From NCBI GenBank assembly GCA_021784555.1, contig JAJYHY010000033.1, positions 1 through 39,384 of the forward strand: a DNA stretch of 39,384 bases. The letters run 5' to 3'. Position 1 is the first letter of the stretch, and every line of letters begins with the position of its first letter. The notes beneath the pieces were generated by a model, which worked only from the letters and a program-made list of their open reading frames with translations, was not told where the DNA came from and did not search any database. The stretch comes from a bacterium (GTDB lineage: Bacteria > Verrucomicrobiota > Verrucomicrobiia > Limisphaerales > UBA8199). This document shows, one piece after another, positions 3,922 through 37,528 of this stretch. A program made the translations under genes and the position numbers.

Positions 3922-4048
3922 GCGGGGTGAAGGCATTAAATTTCAGAGCATGCCTGAAAACATGTTGTTAACAGGTCAAGTTTTGTGCTAGTTTCTTTGT
4001 TGAATTCGCGCCCCTTTGTTGGTTAGGGTAGAGTCGAACTGTGCGTGT

Positions 4049-4921
4049 ATGAAACCCGCAAGCGCCACCGACTCCGGCAGAGCCCTCCCTGAGAAACGGA
4101 GGGTGGCGCTCCTGAAGTTGCTCGGAGACGAAGACCCGGCGGTCTATCGCACGATTCGCGAGAAGATCCTCGCCGGCGGTTCACAAGCAACCGAGTGGCT
4201 CCGCCCGCACGCCCTGAGCCGTGACCCCGTCGTGCGCCGCCACGTCCGGGCCATCCTCCTGCACTTTGACGGCCAGGCCGCTGACGACCAGTTCCTGGCG
4301 TTCTGCCTCAAACAGGGCCAAGAGCTCAACCTGGAGCAGGGCGCATTTCTCCTGGCCCGCACGCGCTATCCCGGCATCAACACCGAGGCCTACGGCGCGC
4401 TGCTCGACAGCTTTGCCGGCGAGCTTGGGCATCGGCTGGAGCGCCGGGCCAAGGCCTCAAAGACATTGTCCGAAGTCAATCGCTATCTCTTCGATGAATT
4501 GGGGTTCGCCGGCAACCAGCGCGATTATTACAACCCGGACAACAGCTACTTGAACCGTGTCATTGATCGGCGCACCGGCAGCCCGATCAGTCTCTGCCTG
4601 GTGTACTTGTTAGTGGCGCGGCGCTTGAGCCTGCCGGTCGCGGGCATCGGGCTGCCCGGACATTTTATCTGCCGCTACCAGTCCAGTTCGGCCGAGATGT
4701 ACGTTGATGCCTTCAATAGGGGCCAGTTCCTGACCAAGGCTGACTGCATCCAGTATCTTGCCAGGGGCAACTTCAGCCCGCGCGAAGATTATCTTTCTCC
4801 GTTGTCGGCCCGGCGCCTGCTGCTGCGCTTATGCGCCAACCTGCACCAGGTTTACCAGGAGCTGGAGAAACAGGATGAGGCTCTTCGGCTGCAACGTTAC
4901 ATGGTGGCCCTGGCGCGGTGA
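4049..4921 (+). CDS. SirB1-like transglutaminase-fold protein (Transglut_core2)
   Basis: This 290-residue protein has the SirB1/Transglut_core2 pattern. An N-terminal all-helical region (residues about 10-125) is followed by VNRYLFDELGFAGN, YYNPDNSYLNRVIDRRTG, SPISLCLVYLLVARRL and IGLPGHFICRY, then an AFNRG strand. The R-x-G-x-P-I-S-L and G-x-P-G-H-F motifs are the most conserved of the family; the cysteine in SLCLVY and histidine in PGHF are the likely active-site remnants. The biochemical role of SirB1 proteins is poorly defined; some are linked to peptidase-like or TPR-coupled functions. I start at ATG 4049 because the TTG at 4016 would add an unconserved tail. The stop is 15 bases before the inverted heptad repeat of the next element. 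Confidence 0.85.
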   Translation: MKPASATDSGRALPEKRRVALLKLLGDEDPAVYRTIREKILAGGSQATEWLRPHALSRDPVVRRHVRAILLHFDGQAADDQFLAFCLKQGQELNLEQGAFLLARTRYPGINTEAYGALLDSFAGELGHRLERRAKASKTLSEVNRYLFDELGFAGNQRDYYNPDNSYLNRVIDRRTGSPISLCLVYLLVARRLSLPVAGIGLPGHFICRYQSSSAEMYVDAFNRGQFLTKADCIQYLARGNFSPREDYLSPLSARRLLLRLCANLHQVYQELEKQDEALRLQRYMVALAR

Positions 4922-4935
4922 GTCATCAAAGGGGG

Positions 4936-4961
4936 AAGGCTAAAGGCTGAAGGCTAAAAGG
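4936..4961. repeat. Left inverted arm of heptad-repeat element (AAGGCTA words)
   Basis: Three consecutive 7-base words of consensus AAGGCTA/G (4936-4956) are followed by AAAGG. The reverse complement is found at 5361-5386 with one substitution (GGTTAA for GGCTAA) and one base of length difference. The arms flank the four-helix-bundle gene, and the left arm lies directly before its start codon, so it may also form the 5' side of an RNA hairpin over the whole gene. Confidence 0.85.
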
Positions 4962-4964
4962 AAA

Positions 4965-5327
4965 ATGAACCCACGACCGCAAGATTTGAAAGCACGCACC
5001 AAGGCGTATGCGCTGCGCGTCATCAAAATGTATTCCGAGCTGCCGAAGAACAACACCGTCGCCCAGGTTCTCGGCAAGCAGGTTCTTCGCTCCGGCACTT
5101 CCGTCGGCGCGAACTATCGCGAAGCCGCGCGCGGATGTTCCAAAGCGGAATTCATTTCCAAAATCGGCGACAGCCTCAAAGAGGTTGAAGAATCGGAGTA
5201 TTGGCTGGAATTGCTTGTGGAGAGCGGGCACGTGCCTGCCGCGAGAATGGCCAATCTGCTCGGTGAGACGCGTCAACTTATCGCCATCCTCACAACAATT
5301 GACAAGCGCGCGAAGGAAAAATGCTAA
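4965..5327 (+). CDS. Four-helix-bundle protein (23S rRNA IVP / bAvd-like family)
   Basis: A 120-residue protein with the family pattern: an N-terminal LKARTKAYALRVIKMYSELP helix, the central VLGKQVLRSGTSVGANYREA motif, then SKAEFISKIGDSLKEVEE and an ESEYWLELL helix, ending in LLGETRQLIAILTTIDKR. In spirochaetes and others this family is encoded by intervening sequences within 23S rRNA genes, and a homologue (bAvd) serves diversity-generating retroelements. Members probably bind RNA as oligomers; the cellular role of free-standing copies is unknown. Here the gene stands alone between two protein genes and is bracketed by heptad inverted repeats (4936-4961 and 5361-5395), 3 and 33 bases from the ORF ends. 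No reverse transcriptase or rRNA is adjacent. The start at 4965 directly follows the repeat. Confidence 0.95.
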   Translation: MNPRPQDLKARTKAYALRVIKMYSELPKNNTVAQVLGKQVLRSGTSVGANYREAARGCSKAEFISKIGDSLKEVEESEYWLELLVESGHVPAARMANLLGETRQLIAILTTIDKRAKEKC

Positions 5328-5360
5328 AGGCGAAATGCTAAGAATCTGCATCTGATTCCG

Positions 5361-5395
5361 CCTTTAACCTTCAGCCTTTAGCCTTTAGCCTTTGA
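5361..5395. repeat. Right inverted arm of heptad-repeat element (CCTTTAG words)
   Basis: Five consecutive 7-base words of consensus CCTTTAG run from 5361 to 5395. The first three and a half pair with the left arm at 4936-4961. Read on the minus strand, the array encodes the last residues of the EF-hand protein (QRLKAKG) and its TGA stop (5371-5373). It therefore overlaps a coding sequence. Confidence 0.85.
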
Positions 5396-7500
5396 AAGAG
5401 CGCCAGCCCCGCTGCCAGCAGGAGCAGGAGGAGGAGCAGGTAGAGCCACCAGCGCGGACGCCTTTCGGCGTACGGATCCGCCAGGTCGCGCCGGGCGCCG
5501 GGAGGGAGGACGGCGACGCGCGTGAGGGACACGCCGAAGGGGACGTTAATCCTGGCCCTGGCGTTAACAGCCCACCCGCTGGCGTCAAGAATGGGTCCCA
5601 GGTTGCGCCGCCGCAGCTTAAGCCAGGCCAGGACCATGGAAGGGCCGGAGATGACGCCGATGATGGCCAGCACGCCCAGGGGCATCATCCATCTCAAGGC
5701 GAGAAAGCCGGTCACAATGCCCCCGATCATGCCGCCCAGCCCGGCAACGCCGACACTCAGAGCGGCAATCATGCCGGGGTCGATCCGCTTGGAAATCTGC
5801 CCTGCCGAGGTGGCGCCTGGTTTTTGAGGCGCGGTTGCCATCCGCGCCAGGGTTGAGACAGCGAGGTCGTCCGCCGAGGTCGCACGCTTAGCGAACTGCT
5901 CCTGAATGGCGCGGGCGGCTTTCTTGTAAGGGGCCCAGAAGGCCTGGCGGATGCTGATGGGATTATCCTGAATCCGGATGATGGTCGCGTCCCAGTCGCG
6001 CCCTTGGCGGTCGTAGAAAAGACCGTTGCGTCCCACCAGCAAGTTGTCGGAGTCGCCGTTGGTGAAGGCGGCCACAATCTGCATTTTCTCGCCGGTAGCC
6101 TTGCGCACGCAATCACAATAGGCGAGGTAAGCGCCGGCCAGGCCGGCCATAGCGGCGTGTTTGGCGGCGTCTTCAACGCGCAAGCAGAGATCGCAACTCC
6201 GCTGGTCCAGGAAAAGTGTGCCCGCCTGAAAGATGGCCTTGGCCTTGCCGCTGTAGAAATCGCGGAATGAAACGAAGTTGTTGAGGAGGCGGAAGAGGTC
6301 GCGGTGCAAACGCAACAACTTTTCCACGGTCGCGATGTCGTTGACCTGCGCCTGGAATGTCAGATCGGTGGCAATCAGCGTTGAGACGGCCTCTTTGCCC
6401 GGCCCCGTCAATATGGCGCGGATGCGCTCGATGCCGAGCTTCTCAACCGGGGCGCCTGTCTTTGCGGCTATCCAGGTCTCATAATGGGCGAAGCAACCCT
6501 TGATGGCCGTCCAATTGTCCTCAAGCATCGCCTCTCCGGCGCCGAGCAGCGGCTTGACCACCTGCGCCTCGAATCGCGCCATGGCGTCCACCCACGCCGG
6601 ATTGACCCCCTCCCGCAACGGCAATGGCCGTCCGGCCCGGATGCGCGAGAGCGGCAGAGCGGCGATTTCAGCCGAAGAGAGCGTCAGCTCTTTGGCGCTA
6701 AACGATAAGTAATCGTTTTCGTCACGATTCAAGGCATCTTCAGAGCGCGGGTCGAATGCGGCCAACCGGCAGCGGGCGAAATAGTCCTCCACCTTGGGTT
6801 TGACGGCCTGGAATACGGCGTAAGCGCCGGCGGTCGCATCACCAAGTGGCAACGTCTCGGGATGGGCCACGGCCTCTTGCCGCCAGTCCATATAGGCCTG
6901 AGCTTGCGTAAAGAACAAATCCACCTTGGCCTGACTCACACCCGGTTTGCCGCTGTGGTCAGTCTCGGCGCCAAGACAGGCAATAATGTCCTCAACGAGC
7001 GCCTGGGTCTCGGGCTCCTGGGTCGAATCGGAGGGGATGATGCCATCGCCATTGTAGGGGGTCTGGGCGAGAGCGCCGGCGGTGTTCGCGGTGTCCTCGA
7101 GGGTAACTGTCTGGGCTTGGCTCTTACCCAGGCCGGCAAGGATCTGCCTTGCGGAGGACAGGATCTGCGCGCCTTCGGGGTCGCTGTCGTTGATGGCGGA
7201 GAGAGAGATTTCCGCGGCGCCCTGGAGCAAGTCATCAGGGTTCTTGAGCATGGAACAAACCCAGTTCGTCGCGGCGATGATTTCCGGCGCCCGGATACGT
7301 CCATCCTTATCCGCATCGATCAGCGCCAGGGTCTTTGAATCGAACTCCAGGCCGGTCGTGGGACAGGCCAAGGCGACCCAGAGCTTCTGATCAAGCTGCT
7401 CCAAAGCAGCCAGGTCGGCGCCTGAGGCCAGTTCCACTTGATCAAAACCGCCAATTCGGGAGAATCTCCAGATATGCTTCGAGTTCAGCGCAACGCCCAT
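5371..7500 (-). CDS. EF-hand-containing membrane protein
   Basis: A 709-residue protein. A canonical EF-hand loop, DADKDGRIRAPE, is at residues 62-73, and a second loop-like NGDGIIPSD lies near 150. A long, mainly helical region follows, with a CDLCLRVEDAAKH segment and GDSDNLLVGRNGLFYDRQGRDW, then a hydrophobic stretch at about 576-626 (probably two membrane helices) and a final one at about 684-701 (WWLYLLLLLLLLAAGLALF). I believe this is a conserved uncharacterised family that binds calcium and sits in the inner membrane with most of the protein soluble. The extreme C-terminus (QRLKAKG) is encoded by the heptad repeat at 5361-5395, so the original end was probably replaced or extended when the repeat arrived. 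The start at 7500 is the only good option, without a clear ribosome binding site. Confidence 0.8.
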   Translation of the reverse strand: MGVALNSKHIWRFSRIGGFDQVELASGADLAALEQLDQKLWVALACPTTGLEFDSKTLALIDADKDGRIRAPEIIAATNWVCSMLKNPDDLLQGAAEISLSAINDSDPEGAQILSSARQILAGLGKSQAQTVTLEDTANTAGALAQTPYNGDGIIPSDSTQEPETQALVEDIIACLGAETDHSGKPGVSQAKVDLFFTQAQAYMDWRQEAVAHPETLPLGDATAGAYAVFQAVKPKVEDYFARCRLAAFDPRSEDALNRDENDYLSFSAKELTLSSAEIAALPLSRIRAGRPLPLREGVNPAWVDAMARFEAQVVKPLLGAGEAMLEDNWTAIKGCFAHYETWIAAKTGAPVEKLGIERIRAILTGPGKEAVSTLIATDLTFQAQVNDIATVEKLLRLHRDLFRLLNNFVSFRDFYSGKAKAIFQAGTLFLDQRSCDLCLRVEDAAKHAAMAGLAGAYLAYCDCVRKATGEKMQIVAAFTNGDSDNLLVGRNGLFYDRQGRDWDATIIRIQDNPISIRQAFWAPYKKAARAIQEQFAKRATSADDLAVSTLARMATAPQKPGATSAGQISKRIDPGMIAALSVGVAGLGGMIGGIVTGFLALRWMMPLGVLAIIGVISGPSMVLAWLKLRRRNLGPILDASGWAVNARARINVPFGVSLTRVAVLPPGARRDLADPYAERRPRWWLYLLLLLLLLAAGLALFQRLKAKG

Positions 7501-7543
7501 AGGGTTTAAACATTCCGGGCGTTAACATGCCATAACGTGCGCG

Positions 7544-7578
7544 GATTTGCGATTTTGGAATTGCGATTTGCGAATGGG
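7544..7578. repeat. Heptad-repeat array (GATTTGC words)
   Basis: Five 7-base words of consensus GATTTGC lie between the lipoprotein's 3' end and the EF-hand gene's 5' end. The last word is degenerate. The same consensus appears at 15653-15674. The rest of the 165-base gap (7501-7665) holds no gene I can support. Confidence 0.75.
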
Positions 7579-8283: not shown

Positions 8284-8369
8284 CGCACATGCTATACTTT
8301 GACGTGCGAGCCGTCAACCGGGTGAAGACCCCAACGAGGGGCGATAGAGCCTGGAAAGGCACAAGCCGA

Positions 8370-8425
8370 CATCGAACAACCAACATCCGACATCGAACAT
8401 CGAAGATCCAACGCCCAATACCCGA
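8370..8425. repeat. Heptad-repeat array (CATCGAA words)
   Basis: Eight 7-base words in strict phase with consensus CATCGAA (several degenerate, such as CAACCAA and TACCCGA) lie 46 bases before the folK start, between two divergent genes. No ORF or inverted partner is associated with it here. Confidence 0.8.
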
Positions 8426-15650: not shown

Positions 15651-15958
15651 CGGAATTTGCGATTTGCGATTTTGGGACCCCGTATTCGCGCCGGTGGCAA
15701 CTATGGTGCGGATGGTTGACAGGTTTTGCGCAGGGCTGCGCAAAGATTGCGCGCGAGGCGGCGGCAGGAAGGGCGTTATTCAGGATTTCAGGGCTAAATC
15801 ACGGGCAGGGCAGGCTGGCACGGTTCATGCCTTGGAAGTTGGCGAACGTCGCCACAACCCGGCGAAGAACAGCATAGGGCTTGGTAAGCCGGATAGGTGG
15901 AGAAGCCGGGAGGCTCTGGAATGGAGCGCGGCGGCGTTCAGGAAAGAGAAGGATCGAT
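15651..15958. other. Gap between sulfatase and DUF4160 gene, with heptad array
   Basis: A heptad array of the GATTTGC type covers about 15653-15674, right after the sulfatase stop, with three words and the same consensus as 7544-7578. The remaining bases carry short open frames on both strands without recognisable similarity. Nothing else is supported. Confidence 0.6.
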
Positions 15959-35082: not shown

Positions 35083-35160
35083 CATTTTTCGCTGAGGATT
35101 GGGCATTTGTCATTCATTGGCAATGCCAAATGCCAAATGTCTAATGCCCAATGCTCAATG
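35083..35160. repeat. Two-sided heptad array forming a hairpin (CATTNNN then NNNAATG words)
   Basis: Seven-base words in phase. The first half has CATT-initial words (35083-35121, one shortened to CATT), the second half six AATG-final words (35119-35160). The halves are reverse complements of one another, so the array folds on itself. It has the same shape as the inverted heptad arms around the four-helix-bundle gene, but with no gene inside, as if it were a solo form. Confidence 0.8.
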
Positions 35161-37466: not shown

Positions 37467-37486
37467 AATGGCTTCCGTTCTACCAT

Positions 37487-37528
37487 CAATTAACAATTCT
37501 TAATTCTTAATTCTCAATTGTCAATTAA
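37487..37528. repeat. Heptad-repeat array (YAATTNW words) overlapping the purM stop
   Basis: Six perfect-phase 7-base words (such as CAATTAA, TAATTCT and CAATTGT) run without a gap. Read on the minus strand, the array encodes the last purM residues (ELIDN) and its TGA (37514-37516). The core AATT is self-complementary, so the array can fold back in either direction. Confidence 0.85.

Follow-up and report, generated by a model that had tools for sequence, protein, structure and literature searches.

A probable transposase-free mobile cassette: an IVP/S23p-type gene between inverted heptad arrays in a Verrucomicrobiota genome

The 'four helix bundle' proteins of family PF05635 have, to our knowledge, no known function, and we know of no cause that has been given for the heptameric intergenic repeats described repeatedly in bacterial genomes. 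One described setting of such a gene is the intervening sequence (IVS) of Coxiella burnetii 23S rRNA, which is 444 nt long, has a 28-bp stem, carries three GACAGAT heptamers (in a copy number that varies by strain) before its S23p gene, and is cut by RNase III; the S23p protein of Xanthomonas is described as a homopentamer (PMC4990558). Intergenic tandem heptamers have been reported from Xanthomonas and Nostoc (GGGAATC, with 70-75 inverted pairs in Xanthomonas; PMC4692102) and from Beggiatoaceae (TAACTGA; PMC4679880), and a mobile carrier was suggested earlier for repeats of this kind (PMC4692102; PMC4679880). Among the open-access papers searched, none was found to have connected IVP genes with heptad repeats before, and a mention elsewhere is possible.

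The window analysed here, a stretch of 39,384 nucleotides from a draft verrucomicrobial genome of 8.8 Mb, contains at positions 4926-5395 a unit in which an IVP-like gene is enclosed by inverted heptad arrays (Table 1). The unit lies between two protein genes and outside any rRNA gene, in support of the original prediction of an IVS-like package outside rRNA. The favoured reading, to which a probability of roughly 0.72 is assigned as a whole, is that it belongs, as a single copy, to a widespread family of small mobile cassettes that lack a transposase and whose arms are arrays of a lineage-specific repeat unit, or word. A cassette is about 430-480 bp long and holds one IVP/S23p gene, and its ends coincide exactly with inverted arrays, each made of about 4-5 copies of the word.

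Table 1. Features of the window unit and its neighbours, with the loci of a second cassette family
Feature	Coordinates	Strand	Details
Upstream host gene, SirB1-like transglutaminase-like protein	4016..4921	+	301 aa; PF13369 9.5e-48
Left (upstream) arm	4926..4958	+	33-nt inverted repeat with 3.3 copies of AAGGCTA/G heptad
Left-arm tandem array	4936-4958		3.3 x AAGGCTA
AAGGA Shine-Dalgarno-like stretch	4958-4962		directly 5' of IVP gene ATG
IVP/S23p-type four-helix-bundle gene	4965..5327	+	120 aa; PF05635 9.5e-18, TIGR02436 3e-22
Degenerate third heptad array, direct orientation	5313..5341	+	overlaps IVP gene 3' end
Right-arm tandem array	5360-5393		4.9 x GCCTTTA
Right (downstream) arm	5363..5395	+	33-nt inverted repeat, about 5 copies of CCTTTAG
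Downstream host gene	5371..7500	-	709-aa protein; convergent with IVP gene
GxxExxY loci	L087-L092, L188-L216; L047:1977-2379		words such as CACGGATNN, CGCGAATNN

The heptad-arm enclosure proved real. The best inverted pair, built of the 7-nt unit AAGGCTR/YAGCCTT, is 88% complementary over 33 nt with the arms 404 nt apart; near-complementary arms had been proposed, and that part stands, while their length exceeds slightly the 25-26 bases first given. The arm score of 21 compares with a maximum of 14 in 1000 dinucleotide-preserving shuffles of the flanks, none of which reached it, and these shuffles, along with the control ORFs described below, rule out the arms as a chance product of base composition. 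Over its full length the IVP protein exceeds the curated cut-offs of PF05635 (64.8 bits; cut-off 33.8) and TIGR02436 (78.9 bits; cut-off 24); PF05635 is the sole Pfam match of the cassette protein, in which no catalytic motif is recognised, and no transposase is encoded. The left arm starts 4 nt past the stop codon of the SirB1-like gene, which is co-directional with the IVP gene, and the degenerate third array can pair with the right arm to give a short alternative hairpin. On the minus strand, the right arm forms the last ~8 codons and the stop codon (5371-5373) of the 709-aa gene, whose product ends in FQRLKAKG. Alignments with homologues of this protein, which is kept in 12 of the 13 genomes of the family, end at about residue 697-704; the 3' end of the gene has been rewritten by the right arm of the cassette. 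Elsewhere in the window, heptad arrays without an adjoining IVP gene occur at 7543-7575 (GATTTGC), 8369-8412 (ACATCCA), 15655-15672 (ATTTGCG), 35121-35160 (CAATGCC), and 37486-37526 (TCAATTC).

Armed IVP genes are by no means confined to this locus. The source genome holds about 15 IVP-family genes, and PF05635 proteins were found in 34 of 40 relatives searched, at up to about 21 copies each. In the source genome and its relatives, 42 of 60 IVP loci have inverted arms, as against 2 of 177 control ORFs (p = 9e-30); period-7 arrays lie on both sides of 30 of the 60 IVP loci and of none of the controls. The same holds for 80 named IVP loci, chosen by similarity to the window lineage and drawn from Verrucomicrobia, Bacteroidota, Chloroflexi, Cyanobacteria, Proteobacteria, Planctomycetes, and Acidobacteria, 51 of which are armed against 4 of 333 neighbouring ORFs (p = 2e-39), and for plasmids, where inverted flanking repeats were present at all 12 IVP loci read. 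The complementary heptad flanks foreseen for IVP homologues are thus a general property, with about a third of IVP loci showing no arms at the threshold used. These counts come mostly from draft MAGs, with arms scored ungapped within 300 nt, control ORFs called mechanically, and two weak TIGR02436 matches below the cut-off (L016 and L017) excluded. One of the 4 armed neighbours is another IVP gene, and the armed controls L047 and L133:3600 are GxxExxY genes or overlap them in antisense, by which a second cassette family was recognised. The dominant period at 111 armed loci is 7 in 92, 8 in 6, and 9 in 2, mostly with 4-5 copies per arm, and the median cassette length is 476 bp.

Sequence comparison of filled and empty sites strongly supports mobility, and a mobile cassette is very probably what these units are. 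At a joint between genes of a HlyD/MacB-type operon, 15 species are empty, and in 13 of these stop and start simply overlap as ATGA, 12 carry a cassette, and 2 are filled by another, ORF-less hairpin; both neighbour genes are intact in many of the cassette-less sister species, and cassettes persist at this one site across several families of the order. The filled and empty states require 4-5 changes on the flank tree, with gain and precise loss indistinguishable, and in one HlyD/MacB case only does CATGA, a candidate 5-bp target-site duplication, stand on both sides of the cassette. Empty counterparts with a native spacing of 9-15 bp exist for two window-type cassettes, L085 and L086, and the site filled in L086 holds, in L272 / L284 (G006:C55), an internally deleted remnant of ~150 bp in which the AAGGCTA arrays at either end survive along with the first codons, those for the N terminus, of the IVP gene. 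In Nostoc plasmids the insertions were not clean: the cassette stands in place of about 300 bp of a cytosine methyltransferase gene in three plasmids and of about 190 bp of another ORF in a fourth, no target duplication being evident in these two insertions. By these comparisons gene and arms are gained or lost together as one unit, and the empty sites in sister genomes, at the HlyD/MacB joint, the L085/L086 sites, and the Nostoc plasmids, lend support to the original prediction that the 460-base package is the unit that moves. An empty site of the window copy itself was not found among relatives, in which the 709-aa gene is single-copy and has no SirB1 gene beside it. Given that identity limited to the cassette recurs at unrelated places, both between L112 and L116 (93.6% over 423 bp; the alphaproteobacterial label of L116 could reflect a binning error) and between L127 and L128 within one MAG (86% over 389 bp), dispersal between and within genomes is evident. 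Movement as such was not observed in any of these comparisons.

Insertion is strongly oriented with respect to both neighbours (++ in 55 cases, -- in 7; p = 2e-10), and the median gaps are 2 nt from the upstream stop to the cassette and 8 nt from the cassette to the downstream start. Gaps this tight cannot accommodate a separate promoter, so the cassette would ride on host transcription. The neighbours are diverse, with 80 Pfam families in 98 proteins at the named loci, and this diversity contradicts the preference for defence genes that cyanobacterial plasmids (DISARM, CRISPR, hsdM) had suggested. Several cassettes (among L217-L219, L223, L224, L124, and L129) were seen in or between defence genes, for example between drmD and pglX (DISARM), csx2 and cas1, or a helicase and an N6-methylase gene, and one lies inside hsdM, part of which is missing. 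A window-type cassette in L099 stands directly 3' of a putative tRNA gene, as judged by eye.

The same sense orientation would suit an element acting at the RNA level, the arms of which pair in the operon mRNA so that RNase III excises or separates the IVP segment while the protein binds the RNA stem. The Coxiella IVS, with the same size, stem, and heptamers, and cut by RNase III, offers a precedent (PMC4990558); the window unit, when folded as RNA, as had been proposed, forms a terminal stem of 7+19 bp with z = -3.66 (a search of positions 4000-6400 gave no Rfam match to it), and stem formation would draw the upstream stop and the downstream start together. Sense orientation, however, is also expected from a cassette in need of host transcription, and the arms themselves behave in a manner that makes an RNA-level element unlikely. 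Orthologous cassettes at one operon joint carry the words GAATGAA, AAGGATG, or ATGATGA, and in every one of them the left and right arms match in word. L238 and L220, which are Nostoc copies of a single insertion, differ by one heptad in both arms; among Planktothrix copies, each arm of L219 exceeds its counterpart in L218 in length; and L222, from Nostoc UHCC 0870, has as its arms a 40-nt perfect inverted repeat in which non-heptad sequence has replaced heptads wholesale on both sides. The left and right arms also correlate in copy number (r = 0.46, n = 93), and variant heptads tend to stand in mirrored order in the two (42 of 52). The two arms, then, evolve in concert as inverted DNA copies. 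Where they mismatch, there is no bias towards G.U of the kind that selection for RNA pairing would predict (96 G.U-compatible against 116 A.C), and this lack of skew favours arms that are copied or kept identical as DNA over arms selected to form an RNA stem; the original supposition that pairing in the transcript is what matters is therefore not supported. For the cassette reading, the chances that a DNA rather than an RNA hairpin is the working form are judged to be even, and the IVP protein may bind the stem.

Less likely still is that generic, host-driven heptad hairpins, arising by slippage and quasipalindrome correction, spread alone and that IVP genes are tolerant passengers in them. 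Inverted heptad pairs without an IVP gene do exist, and most inverted heptad hairpins in the source genome are of this type, with about 3 ORF-less examples in 217 kb of it; heptad arrays are, furthermore, common intergenic repeats in several phyla (PMC4692102; PMC4679880). Gene-less hairpins in the source genome include L061:12-138, L065:2786-3008, and L050:6353-6540, two of which have the GATTTGC word of the L003 cassette. The original prediction would have been undone had arms been equally frequent away from the gene; arms without it were indeed found, but at unequal frequency, with 64-70% of IVP genes armed against 1% of others (about 150-200-fold odds). The joint gain and loss of gene and arms is also at odds with free-standing hairpins, as is the relation of word to protein, the same word accompanying the same protein lineage across phyla and different words occurring within one genome. 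The IVP genes of the source genome are mostly armed, each with its own word (AGACCAC, AGAGGTC, GATTTGC, AAGGCTA, GAATGCG, TGGATTGA, GCATTGA, and others), and ten copies compared within this genome have mostly different words (mean cosine 0.05). In other genomes, the proteins closest to the window IVP protein are accompanied by AAGGCTA. Arm similarity tracks protein identity (Mantel r = 0.48, reached in 0 of 2000), the mean arm 6-mer cosine being below 0.01 at less than 50% protein identity and 0.40 above 70%. The word follows protein lineage, not host, and this linkage could be mere co-inheritance. Window-word arrays also occur where the matching protein is: in a survey of 320 genomes of the order, three-copy arrays were found in 13 of 16 genomes with a window-type protein (at least 70% identity) and in 36 of 304 others (p = 2e-9), or in 11 of the 16 with cassette arms excluded (p = 6e-7), figures that shared ancestry inflates, although the 16 genomes span eight families. 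A genome with several window-type proteins (G008) contains 182 window-word array matches.

The presence of GxxExxY (TIGR04256) genes in similar hairpins speaks for the generic-hairpin reading. Inverted runs of short tandem words, 8-11 nt long, enclose these genes at 21 of 31 loci and make them a second cassette family of like architecture; the design is not unique to IVP, which counts against the favoured reading. A small gene within inverted short tandem repeats is common to both families; in the GxxExxY cassettes, however, the protein is unrelated and of a PD-(D/E)XK nuclease-like type, and the words have CACGGAT/CGCGAAT-like cores. The ORF-less hairpins at the HlyD/MacB joint, of ~135 bp and composed of CGCAAAGG words in two sister species (L257 and L267), are MITE-like relatives of GxxExxY cassettes, whose word type they share.

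Finally, it is highly improbable that IVP is a host regulatory gene with arms serving as an operator or attenuator for itself or its neighbours. In favour of this reading, the upstream array touches the ribosome-binding region, the coding strand of the heptads is rich in G+A and poor in C, and cassettes persist at one site across several families. Against it, different sites have unrelated neighbours, many sister species lack the unit although both flanking genes are intact, and copy number rises to about 20 per genome.

A mechanism for the favoured cassette reading can be outlined. The IVP protein, probably a pentamer like its solved relatives, would recognise the repeated word on the hairpin-forming ends, perhaps with one word per subunit; that the protein reads its own word is somewhat probable, and that each ring subunit takes one word is doubtful. 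A ring binding a run of words in this manner would account for lineage-specific words and for a copy number near five, and the solved relatives 2rld and 2gsc contain five chains each. Because the cassette protein has no catalytic domain, mobilisation must use host enzymes; the protein would aid those of replication and recombination to copy and insert both the cassette and its gene-less hairpin relatives. Arm-to-arm copying, through template switching in the hairpin, would keep the arms identical, while sense insertion between operon genes would supply transcription, there being no room for a promoter within the unit. Insertion at operon joints with occasional replacement of target DNA would agree with a process at replication forks, either strand annealing or template switching. 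The intervening sequences of 23S rRNA would be rRNA-resident members of the same kind.

An orphan protein family (PF05635) and an orphan class of DNA repeat would thereby share one testable explanation, which predicts that each lineage recognises its own 7-nt code, that arms are copied from one another, and that insertion takes place where a stop and a start codon meet. More tentatively, a new class of transposase-free elements may be envisaged in which a small protein reads a tandem word and mobilises, in trans, its own cassette as well as the numerous orphan hairpins of heptads or octamers found across bacterial genomes, with a word length set by protein family (7 nt, in some cases 8-9, for IVP; 8-11 nt for GxxExxY) and with the 23S IVS as the corner that was seen first. 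On the favoured reading, intervening sequences of rRNA would become special instances of a more general mobile element, and the matched pairs of protein and word would form a natural set in which to study how a small ring protein recognises sequence.

The 23S IVS is among the closest known systems. As in an IVS, terminal complementary arms surround a PF05635/S23p ORF in the window unit, which is nevertheless not an IVS in the strict sense, as it is not inserted in an rRNA (23S/16S) helix; by analogy, the window copy may be built and work like one. The Coxiella IVS shares with the cassettes its S23p/IVP-family ORF, its size (444 nt against the 476-bp median), inverted arms some 28-33 nt long, and a run of tandem heptamers just 5' of the ORF, while the cassettes differ in residing in protein operons, in having heptad arrays as both arms, in numbering many copies with different words per genome, and in the occurrence, across the genome, of word arrays and of related hairpins that carry no gene. 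With DNA transposons such as IS elements and MITEs the cassettes share inverted repeats at their ends and precise empty sites (the latter at relatives of the window copy); unlike these, the cassettes encode no transposase, and their terminal repeats vary between copies and are conserved only within a protein lineage. Avd of diversity-generating retroelements is a homologous four-helix pentamer that works with nucleic acid, although its partners are a reverse transcriptase and template repeats. A hairpin-ended gene that matches dispersed gene-less hairpins of its genome, with a lineage-specific hairpin sequence, is likewise characteristic of RAYT/REPIN systems, but RAYTs are catalytic tyrosine transposases, whereas the IVP protein has no known catalytic motif, and REP hairpins are not inverted tandem heptad arrays. 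RAYT/REPIN and REP elements are counted among the closest known systems (REPINs: PMC3116915). Lastly, cyanobacterial STRR are further heptameric intergenic repeats that can be likened to the cassette words; earlier reports on heptamers linked no gene family to them (PMC4692102; PMC4679880), whereas here the word is tied to the IVP lineage.
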